Shown in pieces: positions 6,580-49,548 of a stretch of DNA of 64,000 nucleotides. The notes beneath the pieces were generated by a model. The model saw nothing but the letters and a program-made list of their open reading frames with translations. It was not told where the DNA came from and did not search any database. The position numbers were made by a program, and so were the translations under genes. Every line of letters begins with the position of its first letter. Positions within the stretch are counted from its first letter, which is position 1. Source of the DNA: Candidatus Cloacimonetes bacterium HGW-Cloacimonetes-2 (lineage in GTDB: Bacteria > Cloacimonadota > Cloacimonadia > Cloacimonadales > Cloacimonadaceae); the NCBI GenBank assembly GCA_002842035.1, contig PHBP01000002.1:124001-188000 (forward strand), given 5' to 3'.

Positions 6580-7820
6580 GCAGGATACTTATCTTAACTT
6601 ACTACTTCCCTCCTGCCGGAGGTGCGGCTGTCCAAAGATGGCACCGCTTTATCCCAGCTTTAATCACACTAGGGCATCAGATTTCAGTAATTTGCCCCAA
6701 TCGAGGCGCATATCCCTATCTGGATGAAAGCTTGCTGAGAGAGCTTCCCAACGAGTTGAGAGTAATCAGAACAGGTCGATCTAGCTTACTTGCCAATTGG
6801 CAAAAGGACGGGCTCTTACCCTATGGCAATTTGAATAGCTCCAAGAATGACAGTATATTGCGCAGATTGTTGATCTGGATCAGGCTGAATCTGGTGATCC
6901 CCGACATACGAATTAACTGGCTGCCGGCTGCGCTTACAGCAGCGTGTAAGGAACTGCGTAGATTTGATTACGATCTGATCATCACCACAGGTCCTCCCCA
7001 CTCCACTCATTTGTGTGGTCTATTCCTGAGTAATAGGTTTAGAAAACCCTGGTTGGCAGATTTTCGTGATCCCTGGTCTAGAATTCACTACTTATACCTG
7101 GCTAATCCCAGTAAGATTACTATGAAGATCCATAGATACCTCGAAAGAAAGGTTGTAAATAGCGCAAGCGCAGTAAGCGTCATCTCTCATCATATATCCA
7201 GTGAACTGCCTGATGGGAACAAGCATATCTTTTACAATGGATATAGTGATAAGGACTATAGCGGAATTGAGTATCACAAAGCCAATGTGTTTCGTATCAA
7301 GTACATTGGGCAGTTGACAGCAGGACAGAATATCAAGCCACTACTGAAGAAACTATCCGATCTTGATGCAGAGTTTAGTTTTATAGGAACAAACGGGATA
7401 GATGGATATCTTTCAAAGGCAAATGATCCCGGAAAACTCAAGATCATTAGAAAGGGCTTTCTAAAGCATAAAGAGGCAATATCCGAGATGGTGAATGCAG
7501 AGCTTTTGGTATTGATCATCAATGACTATCCGGGTAGCAAAGGTATGCTTACCACAAAGCTTTTTGAATATCTGGCATCAAGAACCCCAATCTTGTGTCT
7601 TGGTGATATGGAAAGTGAAGCAGCCCAGTTGATTTGCAGCTATGATGCAGGGCTTATCGTGCAAGATGCTGACGATCCGGCTGTGCTGGATTTTGTTAAG
7701 AGATCTATATCTGCTTGGCAAAGGGATAGATACATCAGAAACACTCATGATTGCAGTGATTTGGAAAGCTCAAGACAATCTGCAATCCTGGACAAATTGA
7801 TAAGGTCAATTTCGGGTTGA
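6576..7820 (+). CDS. glycosyltransferase, GT-B fold (GT4-like)
   Basis: This 414-residue protein starts ILILTYYFPPAGGAAVQRWHR, the usual glycine-rich start of bacterial GT4 enzymes. It has an acceptor half with DLIITTGPPHSTHL and LADFRDPWSR. The donor half contains IKYIGQLTAGQNIKPLL, a weakened form of the family phosphate-binding region, and LTTKLFEYLASRTPIL, where the KxFEY phrase holds the conserved catalytic Glu. Its ATG overlaps the upstream stop (ATGA), indicating translational coupling with the preceding glycosyltransferase. The sugar and acceptor are unknown. Confidence 0.88.
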   Translation: MSRILILTYYFPPAGGAAVQRWHRFIPALITLGHQISVICPNRGAYPYLDESLLRELPNELRVIRTGRSSLLANWQKDGLLPYGNLNSSKNDSILRRLLIWIRLNLVIPDIRINWLPAALTAACKELRRFDYDLIITTGPPHSTHLCGLFLSNRFRKPWLADFRDPWSRIHYLYLANPSKITMKIHRYLERKVVNSASAVSVISHHISSELPDGNKHIFYNGYSDKDYSGIEYHKANVFRIKYIGQLTAGQNIKPLLKKLSDLDAEFSFIGTNGIDGYLSKANDPGKLKIIRKGFLKHKEAISEMVNAELLVLIINDYPGSKGMLTTKLFEYLASRTPILCLGDMESEAAQLICSYDAGLIVQDADDPAVLDFVKRSISAWQRDRYIRNTHDCSDLESSRQSAILDKLIRSISG

Positions 7821-43216: not shown

Positions 43217-43269
43217 TCAAAATGTGAGACTGCTTAAAAGCCGGCTAACAAAACTTCTTTATAAACCCT

Positions 43270-43482
43270 CACTGAAAACTTCAAATCCAATCACCAAAAC
43301 TTCAAATCGGGGAAATCCGGTCATAACAGGGGTATTCTGGGCTCATGGTTTTTATCACCATTTCTTCAAATACCATCACCGTTTCTTCAAATCTGATCAC
43401 TGAAGACTTCAAGCTTTTATCATACTTTCTTCAAATCACCATCACCATTTCTTCAAACTTTTATCACAGAAACTTCAAATGG
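43270..43482. repeat. 22-bp tandem array (TTCAAAT repeats) upstream of the heat-shock promoter
   Basis: At least six units of 21-22 bp end in TTCAAAT or a near match (TTCAAGC, TTCAAAC) and begin TTTATCACCAT or similar: 43350-43482 is nearly continuous, with two more copies at 43279 and 43299. The stretch has no coding frame. It is the gap of more than 300 bp between hrcA and the IS element. Confidence 0.8.
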
Positions 43483-43527: not shown

Positions 43528-43628
43528 GTATCGGAGGGCATATAGTGGATTAGATTTTTAGGACAGCCCAATAAGGTGTACTTGACATTAAGAAAGCGAT
43601 GAAGAAAGTACAACCGTGGGAGGTTCAA

Positions 43629-43922
43629 ATGAAAAAGCGCAGCACTTACAGCGGTAAGTTTAAGAGCAAGGTTGCCCTTGCGGCAATCGAGGGCAGAAAG
43701 ACAATAGCGGAGTTGGCGTCTGAGTTTTCGTTGCATCCGAATCAGATCAGTCAGTGGAAGAGTCAGTTGTTAGCGAGATCTGAAGAAATCTTTTCCGACA
43801 AGCGAAAAAGGGATAAGGAAGATAATGCTCAGCTAATAGATGAGTTATACAAGCAAATAGGCCAGCTAAAAGTAGAGTTAGACTGGCTGAAAAAAAAATC
43901 TGGGATCATCGGTAAGGGCTAA
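43629..43922 (+). CDS. IS3-type transposase OrfA
   Basis: From ATG 43629 (GGGAGG ribosome site) this 97-residue protein has the Tnp_1 helix-turn-helix (KFKSKVALAAIEGRKTIAELASEFSLHPNQISQWK, in parts) and a leucine-zipper-like end (LIDELYKQIGQLKVELDWLKKKSG). It binds the element ends and works with OrfB. An A9 run lies near its 3' end. Confidence 0.9.
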   Translation: MKKRSTYSGKFKSKVALAAIEGRKTIAELASEFSLHPNQISQWKSQLLARSEEIFSDKRKRDKEDNAQLIDELYKQIGQLKVELDWLKKKSGIIGKG

Positions 43923-43923
43923 A

Positions 43924-44387
43924 GTGCAGCTTATTGAATCGGCGCAAGAGAGTATCAGTGTTGTCCGACAGTGCGAGTTGCTGGGCATCTCTCAGTCGTC
44001 CTACTATTACAAACCGCGGATAAATGAGTTTGATTTAGAGCTAATGGCTAAGATTGATGAGATTTATACCAGGAGGCCATTTTTCGGCTCGCGTCGGATA
44101 ATGATGGAATTGAAGCAGTTAGGCTTATCCGTCGGTAGAAGGAAAGTGCAAGCTCTGATGGATAAAATGGGTATTGAAGCTATTTATCCCAAGCCTAATC
44201 TAAGCAAGCCCAATTTAGAGCATAGAAGCTACCCCTATTTACTCAGAAACGTGAAGATAGAGCGACCGAATCAGGTTTGGTGTTCGGACATAACTTACAT
44301 CAGGATGACGAATGGCTGGCTTTATCTGGTGGCGGTCATGGATTGGTACAGCCGATACATTCTCTCCTGGGAGTTGTCGAATACCAA
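43924..44387 (+). pseudogene. IS3-type transposase OrfB, 3'-truncated
   Basis: The frame starts at GTG 43924 just after the OrfA stop and reads SVVRQCELLGISQSSYYY, FFGSRRIMMELKQLGL and the first catalytic Asp region VWCSDITYIRM, then VAVMDWYSRYILSWELSNT. There the IS sequence ends; the frame runs on to 44628 only through foreign sequence. The second Asp (SDQGSQY region) and the Glu of the DDE triad are missing, so it cannot transpose. The frame is +1, not -1, relative to OrfA. Confidence 0.85.
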
Positions 44388-45328
44388 CCCATCAACTCTC
44401 TTTCCCAGGCACACATTCCTTTTGATGCGTCAAATCCGACCTGATTTGCGTTCAACAATCCAAGATTTGCAATTCTACCTGTATGACCGCCAACTCCACC
44501 TCTTATCAACCAATGACCTACTTCATGCAGTATTCTATCCCGTGCCCACAAATGACCATTTAAATTTCCACCTTGCGTCGTACCATTCGATACAATTATT
44601 GGCTGTCCTGATGGTAATGTATCATTAGATGTGTAAGTTGTTATAAGCGAAGCAATTCCAGAATAAGTAACATTTGGTCCATAGACATTTACCGCTGGAT
44701 CCATGTGAGCACCATTTAATGGACTCCTATATGATATAAAGACCAGATCTGCAAATCCATCAGGTTGATTAATGTGATTGTATGACTGACTCTGATGGTC
44801 ATAAGTAGATGTCCAGTTATCGTAAAGACCGAAATCAATGACCGAATCCATGCTGCTTAGAATGTAGTTATTTATTGAGCCATAGGATGATGAATTGAAC
44901 CCCGGCGGATATGGATTGGGTAATGTAAATCTATAGACATCTCCAACATACTTGTAAACACCTCGAGACATGTCCCAGAAATATTTGGTTATGTTGATAT
45001 CTGACAGCCATTAGAATCCTGGCGTAAACGGATCAAAGTTAATGCTTTCTATGAAGATGTTTTGATAATCCGGATCTCCCGGTGATGGCCAGTAGGGTGC
45101 ATTGGGAAGATATTCTTCACCTTCTCGATCAACAAAGATTATACATACTCTCATGATCCCAGTAGATGGTACTGAATGTCCACCTCGTGGAAACAACCTG
45201 ATGTGTGTTGTCGTTAATGAATCTTCAGGGCTGTATTCATCATAGTCATCCCAACGCCCCTGACAATAAAGCTGAGACGACAACAATGACATCACAAAAG
45301 CAAGCAGTAAACTTAATGTAACTCGCAT
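44387..45328 (-). pseudogene. secreted M6-like zinc metalloprotease, broken by an in-frame TAA and by the IS element
   Basis: ATG 45328 (GGGGGA ribosome site) begins a signal peptide (MRVTLSLLLAFVMSLLSSQLYCQ) and a propeptide-like region with MRVCIIFVDREGEEY. TAA at 45011-45013 ends it at codon 106, yet the same frame continues WLSDINITKYFWDMSRGVYKYVGDVYRF, as expected for an M6-type (immune-inhibitor-like) protease. The zinc motif follows as HEVGHWL, and MCAWERELMGW is the last recognisable stretch before the IS junction at about 44387. All domains beyond, including any sorting domain, are lost. It starts 8 bp after the upstream T9SS-cargo gene. Confidence 0.82.
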
Positions 45329-46405: not shown

Positions 46406-47197
46406 CTATACTGGCGATTTGATATAATTCCTAATCAGCAACTCAGTCTCAGCCTGGAAAGCTCCAGATACGGAGTACTGCGTCTCAACTTCTTCAATGA
46501 GACAGCCATCGTATAGCTGCTTTATGTAAGGATCGTTGTTGTAGGATAGCAGGAACTTGCCCTTGATCTGTTTCAAGGCTTCTGCCAGCTCTACATGCTG
46601 GTTGAAAGCATCCGCGTCCTCACGTTCGTAGATGTGCTCCTTGGTATAGTAGGGAGGGTCAAGATAGAAGAACGTGTGGGGCTGATCGAACCGGGCTACG
46701 ATCTTCTCCCAAGGCTGCTTTTCAATGATAACGTGCCTCAGACGTTCCGAGGCTTCCTTCACCTTGTCCAGATTCCTCAGTGGCATGTATTTGTAGCCCT
46801 GATTGACGCAGAAGTTCTTTGATCTTGAGCCATAGCTGCAGGCGAGGTTGTAATAGAACTTGATCGCCCTTTCCAACTCGGTTCTGGGCTCATGCATCAT
46901 GAAGTTATCAAACATCTCCCTGGCGATCAGATAGTTGTTCAGTTCGGTAACGAAGGCTTCCGGGTGGTTCTTGATGTACTTCCAGAAGTTTACCAGATCG
47001 CCATTGATATCGTTATAGACCTCAGTATAGCGACTCTTCTTAGATAGCTGCCAATCTTCCTTGTTGGCACTCTTCCCGAATAGTATCCAGGCCGCACCTC
47101 CAAAGACTTCGCAGTAGATGTCATGCTTGGGGATGAGCGGAAGGATTTTCTTGCGGAGGAGACGCTTGCCGCCTACCCAGGAGATGATAGAGTTCAT
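46406..47197 (-). CDS. D12-class N6-adenine DNA methyltransferase (first of a tandem pair)
   Basis: The 263-residue protein has the Dam-like SAM-binding start WVGGKRLLRKKILPLIP and EVFGGAAWILF, and the catalytic motif DPPY near residue 180 (FFYLDPPYYTKEHIY), followed by LLSYNNDPYIKQLY. The class methylates adenine N6 in a short site. Its ATG overlaps the stop of the upstream paralogue (4 bp). No restriction enzyme is adjacent; the context is phage-like, where such enzymes protect phage DNA. The target sequence is unknown. Confidence 0.93.
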   Translation of the reverse strand: MNSIISWVGGKRLLRKKILPLIPKHDIYCEVFGGAAWILFGKSANKEDWQLSKKSRYTEVYNDINGDLVNFWKYIKNHPEAFVTELNNYLIAREMFDNFMMHEPRTELERAIKFYYNLACSYGSRSKNFCVNQGYKYMPLRNLDKVKEASERLRHVIIEKQPWEKIVARFDQPHTFFYLDPPYYTKEHIYEREDADAFNQHVELAEALKQIKGKFLLSYNNDPYIKQLYDGCLIEEVETQYSVSGAFQAETELLIRNYIKSPV

Positions 47198-47997
47198 TGT
47201 TTCACCCCACTTCCCAACAAGTTGGGCAGCGAGGACCCCGACTCCTCCAGTTTGAAGTTGGCGATGATCACTTCGTTAAACTCGGACTTGCCTTCCTTGC
47301 GGTTGATGCCCTTGGTTCGGGTAACATGCCTGATGTCAAAACCCTTGTATAGCTTAAGCACTTCGGGATTATCATCGTAGGACAGAATGAACCTTCCCTT
47401 GATGTTCTTCAGTATGTCTCTCAAGGCTTCATGGCTGAACTGCTTGGAGTTCTCATAGGTATAGCCCAGCATGTAAGGAGGATCGCAATAGAAGAAGTTG
47501 CTCTTGGTGTCATACTTATCGATCACCTGCTCATAAGACAGATTCTCAATGATCACCATATCCAGGCGTTTGTGGAGTTCTTTGATGCGTTCCAGACGAT
47601 TATACATACTGGAGGTACCACGCTTCTGAGAGGTGCCGAAGCTGTCACCCTTACTTCCGAATGATCTGGTGATCAGATACATGAACCTGGCAGCACGCTG
47701 TATCTCGGTAAGACCTTCCTGCTTGAGGATATCCCCAAAGAGCTTGCGGCTGGCAACTAACCAGTCCAGTTCCTTGATCAGCTCATCAGGATGATACTTT
47801 ACCTGCATGAACAGGTTGACCAGGCGGTTATCGAGATCGTTATAGACTTCCAGATCTCCCCATTTCTCTTTGTAGAGAAGCATCCAGGCAGCCCCACCGA
47901 AGGGCTCGATGTAGCCTTTGATGTCCTTGGGGACGTAGGGAGCGATGACCTTTCTCAGGAGGCGTTTACCGCCTATCCAGCCGATGATCGCATCCAT
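47194..47997 (-). CDS. D12-class N6-adenine DNA methyltransferase (second of a tandem pair)
   Basis: This 267-residue paralogue begins WIGGKRLLRKVIAPYVP, with EPFGGAAWMLLY and the catalytic DPPY near 170 (FFYCDPPYMLGYTYE), then FILSYDDNPEVLKLYKG. It resembles its neighbour along the whole length yet differs in the region between motifs that sets specificity (for example SKGDSFGTSQKRG here). Its start overlaps the stop of the -1-frame extension before it. Confidence 0.93.
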   Translation of the reverse strand: MDAIIGWIGGKRLLRKVIAPYVPKDIKGYIEPFGGAAWMLLYKEKWGDLEVYNDLDNRLVNLFMQVKYHPDELIKELDWLVASRKLFGDILKQEGLTEIQRAARFMYLITRSFGSKGDSFGTSQKRGTSSMYNRLERIKELHKRLDMVIIENLSYEQVIDKYDTKSNFFYCDPPYMLGYTYENSKQFSHEALRDILKNIKGRFILSYDDNPEVLKLYKGFDIRHVTRTKGINRKEGKSEFNEVIIANFKLEESGSSLPNLLGSGVKQ

Positions 47998-48203
47998 CAG
48001 ACATCTCCTTTCGGGTCGGTGATACAGAGTCGCAGATACAGTTCAGGTAATGTGAGAGTGTCGAAGTCAACACTCTCGAAGCCCAGCTTTCTGAGGATCA
48101 TTTCGAACCTCTCGAAGGGGTATTTGGAGACGCCGTTACCGCCAATCCGAAACTCCCGAGCCAACCTGCGAACCTCTCTTTGTTGGCTCTGATATAGACG
48201 AAA
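47997..48203 (-). CDS. -1-frame extension of the phage frameshift gene (fusion about 150 aa); 34-aa ORF inside
   Basis: Read in the -1 frame after the slippery site the sequence gives 67 residues without a stop: RLYQSQQREVRRLAREF, then IGGNGVSKYPFERFEMIL and RKLGFESVDFDTLTLPEL, ending LRLCITDPKGDV. Joined to the first 83 residues of the 0-frame this makes about 150 residues. An ATG inside it (48101) overlaps the 0-frame stop (ATGA) and would give a separate 34-residue protein by coupling. Its stop overlaps the following methyltransferase start by 1 bp. Confidence 0.62.
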   Translation of the reverse strand, partial: FRLYQSQQREVRRLAREFRIGGNGVSKYPFERFEMILRKLGFESVDFDTLTLPELYLRLCITDPKGDV

Positions 48204-48448
48204 AAAGCGGAGATATGCTCCAGTGCTTCAAGTGCATCCATATTGTCCGGGTCCTGGTTTGAGATGATACGGATCAGCTCTTTATCGGCTTCCGATTGGC
48301 TGATCAGTTCAAGCAGTTCCAGCTCACTCACCTTGGCTACCTTGCCGGATAGGAAGTCCTCAAGCTTGGCTTTCAAGGTAGCGTTCGAGATCGTGAGACA
48401 GAGTATTTGCCGCAGTTGGCTATAGCTGAGTTTTGGTTCTCGCTTCAT
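48098..48448 (-). CDS. phage-type small protein, 0-frame product of a probable frameshift gene
   Basis: This 116-residue frame begins MKREPKLSYSQLRQILCL and is largely helical (VSELELLELISQSEADKELI). At codons 82-83 it passes a T TTT TTC heptamer, after which the 0-frame tail (VYIRANKERFAGWLG...SRGSK) looks poor while the -1 frame looks like real protein. The size, the overlap and the position beside a tail-like gene resemble phage tail-assembly chaperones (G/GT type), but no family match can be proven by eye. AAGGATTATTCT is the only sequence upstream of the ATG resembling a ribosome site. Confidence 0.7.
   Translation of the reverse strand: MKREPKLSYSQLRQILCLTISNATLKAKLEDFLSGKVAKVSELELLELISQSEADKELIRIISNQDPDNMDALEALEHISAFFVYIRANKERFAGWLGSFGLAVTASPNTPSRGSK
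48158..48206 (-). promoter_or_regulatory. probable -1 ribosomal frameshift site: heptamer plus stem-loop
   Basis: The heptamer TTTTTTC (48200-48206) is in the correct phase (T TTT TTC). Ten bases later GAGCCAAC (48182-48189) pairs perfectly with GTTGGCTC (48158-48165) around a 16-nt loop. Slippery heptamer, spacer and stem together are the standard layout of programmed -1 sites. Confidence 0.68.
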
Positions 48449-48463
48449 AGAATAATCCTTTTC

Positions 48464-48706
48464 TTATTGACCAAAGAACATTTCGAGGGCAATGCCTAGT
48501 AAGAGCAGGAATTGCGAGGTGGAGACGGTTAGCAGTATCTTCATATTCGTCTCCACTCTCGCCATTCTGGTTACCAGTGACTTGTTGCTGTCACCATTGC
48601 CATAGATCTCCTCGTGAACCGAATCGATTTTCTCCTTGAGCACCCCACAGCACAACGAGTTGTGCTGCGAGGACCCCGCGATCTCAGGTTTGCACTGGCA
48701 GTCCAT
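48464..48706 (-). CDS. small phage-type membrane protein (holin-accessory-like)
   Basis: This 80-residue protein has a cytosolic charged coiled-coil part (VLKEKIDSVHEEIYGNGDSN, MARVETNMKILL) and one C-terminal membrane helix (STSQFLLLLGIALEMFFG). The layout is that of XhlA-like lysis accessories and other phage membrane-tethered coiled coils. Four Cys in the first 20 residues are unusual. AAGGAA precedes the ATG. Function is not certain. Confidence 0.65.
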   Translation of the reverse strand: MDCQCKPEIAGSSQHNSLCCGVLKEKIDSVHEEIYGNGDSNKSLVTRMARVETNMKILLTVSTSQFLLLLGIALEMFFGQ

Positions 48707-48749
48707 AGCAGTTCCTTGTTTTCGAGTGTAGCTGCGAAGAGCAGTGATC

Positions 48750-49086
48750 TTATACTCCCGGAGGGATATCCTTGAGCAGGAAGATCTTGTTGGAGGTCAC
48801 TCCAGAGAACTCGGTGGAGATGACTACGTTGAAGAGGCCATCAGCCTCTCCCGACCAGTCAACTGTCCAGCGTAGTCCGGTGAAGATCACCACCCGATCC
48901 AGTTCCTTGGAAGCCACTACGATGGTGGTATCCTTGCTCATGAACAGGGTGCTTTCCAGGAAGTTCTTCTGCTTGGTGGAGAGTCCGGAGATGTTGAGTT
49001 CGACCGTGCTGGTGCGCTTGCCCGGGATGGTATAGTTGCGGGTCTTGAGCTTGGTCAGCTTAGAGTCCGTCTTACCGGGAGGTCAC
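48750..49086 (-). pseudogene. phage tail-like protein, frameshifted near its start
   Basis: A frame is open from 49082 to 48750 and reads GKTDSKLTKLKTRNYTIPGK, then TVELNISGLSTKQKNFLES and, from an internal ATG at 48941, MSKDTTIVVASKELDRVVIF. It has no start codon of its own before 48941. A GTG at 49086, 4 bp after the preceding small ORF, would enter this frame if the CCC at 49078-49080 region had one more C, giving a ~112-residue protein starting VTSPGKTDSK. So a one-base loss (or sequencing error) in a C run is likely. The style resembles phage major tail/tube proteins. Confidence 0.6.
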
Positions 49087-49237: not shown

Positions 49238-49459
49238 TTTTGTTTCAAGGATCATTTGCATTATGTTGCATCCATATTTAGCCTTCCTCAAAGCTCACAC
49301 CTCTGCATCCCCTGTGATTCCGCTGTGGGACAGGGGATTCTCAGCTCCTATCCAGCACTTGTACAGGAGGCTGTTTAAAGGAAGATAAGGAGTATTACAT
49401 TCTTGCACTTAGCTCACCCCTTTGATAGTAAATTGCTAACTACCTGATTGACTATTGCT

Positions 49460-49526
49460 TGCTGCATCATCATGCAGGATACAAGCAGGATACAAGCAGG
49501 ATACAAGCATCCTGGCAAGCAGAGAG
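49460..49526 (+). repeat. interspersed 11-bp-unit repeat, copy C
   Basis: A TGCTGCATCATCATGCAGG head is followed by three near-perfect units ATACAAGCAGG/ATACAAGCATCC and the end word AAGCAGAGAG (49517-49526). The guaB promoter candidate begins 22 bp later. Confidence 0.82.
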
Positions 49527-49548
49527 CAGAAAATAGCTAATGCCAAAC

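Follow-up and report, generated by a model that had tools for sequence, protein, structure and literature searches.

A short gene with two overlapping reading frames lies on the minus strand of the window (the whole 64,000-nt stretch of DNA that was analysed, from Candidatus Cloacimonetes bacterium HGW-Cloacimonetes-2), within a 2.66-kb prophage scrap in the host chromosome. The features of this region are as follows.

about 46415..49079, no strand assigned: prophage scrap, 2.66 kb, with boundaries defined by blastn against phage loci
48750..49079, minus strand: 3' part of a tail tube gene, lacking the first ~72 codons; the full-length homologue matches lambda V
48464..48706, minus strand: upstream gene for an 80-aa protein, conserved in phages, with a hydrophobic C-terminal segment
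48098..48448, minus strand: 0-frame gene for a 116-aa protein, a candidate G-like tail assembly chaperone conserved in 43 distinct proteins (alignment A2)
48218..48221, minus strand: Shine-Dalgarno (SD)-like GGAG, probable frameshift stimulator, 11 nt upstream of the heptamer
48200..48206, minus strand: putative slippery heptamer T TTT TTC, phased gcT TTT TTC (codons Ala-Phe-Phe)
48182..48189, minus strand: 5' arm of a putative stimulatory stem, GAGCCAAC
48158..48165, minus strand: 3' arm of the same stem, GTTGGCTC
47997..48206, minus strand: -1 frame segment, putative T-like domain (69 codons including the two Phe codons, plus the stop)
47194..47997, minus strand: first D12/Dam-type adenine methyltransferase (PF02086, E 1e-26; TIGR00571, E 7e-27, below the cut-off)
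46406..47197, minus strand: second D12/Dam-type adenine methyltransferase (PF02086, E 3e-25)

Beyond the heptamer, the -1 frame encodes 67 residues until the stop at 47997, giving a predicted fusion of 150 aa, and ~33 codons of the 0-frame in the window are dual-coded. The stem consists of 8 bp and starts 10 nt past the heptamer. On re-reading, the layout proposed in the initial annotation proved correct: the 116-codon frame carries T TTT TTC in phase (48206-48200, minus strand), the 67-residue -1 frame that follows is free of stops and ends at 47997, and the 8-bp stem (48189-48182 with 48165-48158) is present 10 nt after the heptamer.

The lower homology boundary of the scrap (~46415-46425) coincides with the end of the second methyltransferase, and the upper boundary (49079) falls inside the tail tube gene in almost all loci. 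The scrap contains no tape measure gene, no start of the tube gene, and no head genes; because the tape measure gene and the tube gene start are missing, the frameshift gene cannot alone serve tail building here. The frameshift gene itself is intact and its protein is 97-99% identical to the nearest phage copies, which is consistent with a recent acquisition. A shorter scrap of the same phage tail region was found between host genes of another Cloacimonadota genome at L134:2166-3063 (also in L015 and L124), containing a tube gene without its start, a 79-aa gene, and the first 21 codons of the frameshift gene; such independent short scraps from one phage region are curious. An identical 48-bp stretch is present near both scraps (window 43260-43307 and L134:3436-3483), within TTCAAATC-like repeats. 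Two dispersed repeats of ~75 bp (window 49275-49385 and 49456-49530), possibly representing a REP/BIME-like or MITE-like element, have 46 more matches in the same genome, often forming a close +/- pair, and none in 15 relatives. The window also contains an IS3-type orfA/orfB pair (43599-44628), probably a decayed insertion sequence, in which orfB is shortened and nine consecutive A occupy the junction.

Homologues were searched for in related genomes, IMG/VR, GTDB genomes, and the phylum. Except for two weak, partial matches, relatives are confined to Cloacimonadota and their phages and prophages. These two were left out: L135, which carries the label Treponema, and L141 (100 aa, E 2.6e-4), the latter because its surroundings are not phage-like. 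Counts refer to 44 distinct copies readable through the slip site, including the window copy; L014 (a chimeric assembly), L021 and L024 (runs of N), L122 (several deletions at a contig end), and L134 and L015 (truncated at about codon 21) were excluded. Protein identity decreases to ~45% in L012 and ~36% in L013. The 44 copies share kinship, and copy counts do not equal independent events.

A conserved in-phase heptamer links the 0-frame to the -1 domain in all 44 copies, the arrangement expected of genes of the lambda gpG/gpGT type. It reads T TTT TTC in 43 copies and T TTT TTT, which is also slippery, in L026, and the expectation of the initial annotation that homologues would keep it thus holds for every alignable copy. 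The window ORFs of at least 150 aa, 21,014 codons in all, contain no in-phase T TTT TTC, and the chance of keeping the heptamer at Ala-Phe-Phe from codon usage alone is ~0.18 per sequence. Among the 31 ungapped copies, the Ala81 codon is GCT without exception and Phe82 is always TTT, and TTC and TTT are used at 42:4 in the rest of the gene. The -1 frame is open across 69-77 codons in every homologue, and the 0-frame extends 33-37 codons past the heptamer.

Codon-position variability, measured on the same 31 ungapped copies, peaks at third codon positions, those of frame 0 before the site (0.33 vs 0.15 and 0.08) and those of frame -1 past the 0-frame stop (0.49 vs 0.17 and 0.08), and is flat across codon positions in the overlap (0.11-0.16). 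The pN/pS ratio is 0.24 for frame 0 upstream of the site and 0.20 for frame -1 where this is the sole coding frame, vs 1.15-5.6 in the wrong frames; within the overlap, the synonymous rates of both frames are strongly lowered. Purifying selection acts on the proper frame on each side of the site and on both frames in the overlap. The comparison of synonymous and non-synonymous rates suggested in the initial annotation therefore reveals a switch of constraint from frame 0 to frame -1 at the site, and since the copies are related, the switch in codon periodicity is a weightier argument than copy counts. The 0-frame tail and the -1 frame are both kept in homologues, not the tail alone. The tail had been described as less protein-like than the -1 frame; this does not hold, as its first ~20 residues (FFVYIRANKERFAGWL...) are kept in all copies.

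The identity of the gene was examined through the gene order of intact relatives. In L035, the order is portal, protease-capsid protein, holin-like protein (a label that represents our own reading of the sequence), 181-aa protein, 97-aa protein, frameshift gene, Dam, Dam, and tape measure. The best match of the structure model of the 181-aa protein is the lambda tube protein V (probability 0.99, E 3e-3), with other tail tubes and Hcp ranking next; the tape measure gene was recognised through PHROG 3336 (E 7e-18). In the divergent L012 and L013, the tape measure gene, labelled from the likeness of its protein start to that of L035, begins within the -1 frame, 8 nt before its end, with no intervening gene. 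Intact relatives thus place the frameshift gene after the tube gene and ahead of the tape measure gene, from which two methyltransferases separate it in the main clade. In the L013 prophage, a tandem pair of tail-tube-like genes (L013:1951-3027) lies ahead of the frameshift gene.

The profile search proposed in the initial annotation recognised neither half of the fusion in Pfam, PHROGs, or NCBIfam, and no credible family match to either half was found in these libraries, PDB, or phage records. The best PDB hit, to 7tok, an acetylxylan esterase entry (E 0.0047), covered only 62 residues, made no sense in this context, and was rejected. The phage record collection also gave no match when queried with the L012 protein and the tape measure protein. 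The structure model of the 0-frame protein is all-helical at moderate confidence (pLDDT 67), and a fold search with it returned no significant match, with two chaperone-named viral proteins at E 4-8. Sequence similarity is not truly defining for these genes, because known counterparts share little of it (PMC5009743); what tailed phages conserve, even where the sequences have little in common, is the frameshift and the order tail tube, chaperone, tape measure (PMC5009743). The very probable membership in the tail assembly chaperones rests on this gene order and the frameshift, and the order found in intact relatives backs what the initial annotation had offered as an inference. There is a slim chance that the gene is a programmed frameshift gene with some other function in the tail module, such as a virion or lysis protein, as might be proposed from the failure of known chaperones to match by sequence or fold; however, a position directly after the tube gene and before the tape measure gene, combined with a frameshift, is the signature of chaperones (PMC5009743), and in the divergent L012 and L013 the tape measure gene follows the frameshift gene immediately. 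It is highly likely from these features that the gene is a lambda gpG/gpGT-type tail assembly chaperone of a Cloacimonadota tailed phage, made via a -1 frameshift.

Upstream of the heptamer, the -1 frame is closed by a stop at a distance of 24-126 nt in all 44 copies, none of which has a start codon in the interval from this stop to the heptamer. The earliest possible -1-frame start lies 33-117 nt past the heptamer, at a position that is not conserved. When the 0-frame codons of the overlap were resampled synonymously, the -1 frame remained open in only 7% of cases, vs 44 of 44 real copies. The locus would instead comprise two separate overlapping genes if the -1 frame were translated by internal initiation (TTG at 48164, giving 55 aa) or reinitiation, and many copies, including that of the window, do carry the TTG at +42 with a loosely SD-like GAGAGG upstream. 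However, the TTG is replaced by CTG or missing in L010, L011, L017, L027, L052, L012, and L013, the -1 residues ahead of it (RLYQSQQREV), which would then go untranslated, are nevertheless conserved, and internal initiation leaves the fixed heptamer and the GGAG unexplained, all of which makes this arrangement very improbable. We infer that the -1 product has no start of its own and would need frameshifting, as is characteristic of the lambda gpG/gpGT type.

The segment 11 nt upstream of the heptamer is GGAG in 41 of the 44 copies and GGAA in the other three, and the Leu codon within it always ends in G. In the neighbouring Leu73-Glu74, which serves as an internal control, the Leu codon varies and Glu is always GAA. 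The spacing falls within the range of 9-14 nt for -1 stimulators (PMC5009743). Because no 16S gene was found in the genome itself, the anti-SD sequence was read from a relative, whose 16S-type 3' end is GGATCACCTCCTTT. The conserved GGAG, absent from the initial annotation, probably belongs among the elements of the site. The downstream stem is a plausible stimulator. Its cells are paired in 93.8% of cases vs at most 41% when slid, and two of its pairs show changes on both sides; shuffle controls are modest (18 to 33 of 500 for the covariation and pairing measures), and the stem is broken in L012 and present in an extended version in L013. Of the 48 possible single changes in its arms, just 2 leave the proteins of both frames unaltered; dual coding alone would thus hold the arms nearly fixed, and the stem does not count as a separate line of evidence. 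Of the three elements that had been described as coinciding at this site, the heptamer and the -1 frame stand, and the stem, lost in L012, is the weakest.

The frame change could also take place in transcription, by slippage of the polymerase on the T run that exists here (seven T in L026), but the run comprises six T vs the >8 T of runs used for transcriptional realignment (PMC3711429), and a phase-specific heptamer with an upstream GGAG suits ribosomal slippage; the probability of this alternative is accordingly minimal. A gene broken by a one-base indel, or a T6 sequencing error, that split a 150-aa protein might be suspected in a copy residing in a degraded prophage scrap, homopolymers being prone to errors, but this is practically impossible and is ruled out by the homologues: the two-frame layout and the heptamer recur in 43 further assemblies derived from many samples and genomes, a single-frame fusion occurs in none, and the 0-frame tail and stop are conserved.

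Under the ribosomal frameshift, most ribosomes would produce the 116-aa 0-frame protein (G-like), and a minority would slip back one base on T TTT TTC, aided by pairing of the upstream GGAG with 16S rRNA and perhaps also by the downstream hairpin, to produce the 150-aa fusion with the T-like domain. We infer both the slippage at T TTT TTC and its efficiency. The binding roles would be those of lambda by analogy: the part shared by the two products would form a coat around the tape measure protein, the T domain would bring in subunits of the tail tube, and the finished virion would contain neither product.

Xu, Hendrix and Duda (2004, cited in PMC5009743) reportedly described the gpG/gpGT tail assembly chaperone of phage lambda, together with its widespread counterparts. 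As in lambda, the gene sits between the tail tube and tape measure genes, encodes a short 0-frame protein (here predicted to be all-helical), appends a second domain by a predicted -1 slip at an X XXY YYZ heptamer, and is followed by a gene that starts at the end of the -1 frame. Unlike in lambda, the heptamer reads T TTT TTC and a pair of Dam-type genes precedes the tape measure gene in the main clade, and no sequence or fold relation was detected between the two systems. The dual-coded overlap (33-37 conserved 0-frame codons) is also longer than in lambda, where the slip frequency is low, about 30:1. The E. coli dnaX gene likewise has a homopolymer-type heptamer, an SD-like element ~10 nt upstream, and a downstream hairpin, but it is a cellular gene whose product is shortened by the shift, whereas the shift in this phage gene would lengthen the product, and the hairpin here is not consistently conserved. 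HK97-type tail assembly chaperones, for which 6-7% frameshifting has been measured (PMC3711429), are also phage tail genes with a programmed shift but show no sequence match to the present gene.

The ATG of the first methyltransferase overlaps the stop of the fusion by 1 nt, both in the window and in almost every relative; within the main clade, the Dam start overlaps the -1-frame stop by 1 nt in 38 copies and by 4 or 13 nt in three. The distance from the 0-frame stop to the methyltransferase start is 91-109 nt. The frameshift might therefore also set methyltransferase output, with only slipped ribosomes handing over directly to the Dam-type gene, but we consider this unlikely, the first methyltransferase having its own SD-like GGAG ahead of its start. 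If true, this coupling would tie phage DNA methylation to the chaperone ratio and might explain why the host scrap retains exactly this stretch. The Dam-type pair (window 46406-47997; L035:5452-7049) comprises two different enzymes and is not present in L012 or L013; in L035, it is followed by an ORF on the opposite strand (7034-7384). The pair looks like a cargo cassette because it is restricted to the main clade and is adjacent to this opposite-strand ORF.

Programmed frameshifting in tail chaperones is already known from other phages, and the accepted model of tail assembly is unchanged. The sequence family is new to the libraries searched, and the kind of gene is well known; no relatives from Cloacimonadota phages were present in the phage record collection searched. 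The gene, which very likely belongs to the tail assembly chaperones, would add to the frameshifted tail chaperones a sequence family from Cloacimonadota phages that had gone unrecognised, with a long dual-coded overlap and an inserted methyltransferase pair as its unusual details. Here again, it would be the frameshift and the gene order, rather than the sequence, that are conserved and allow such genes to be recognised.
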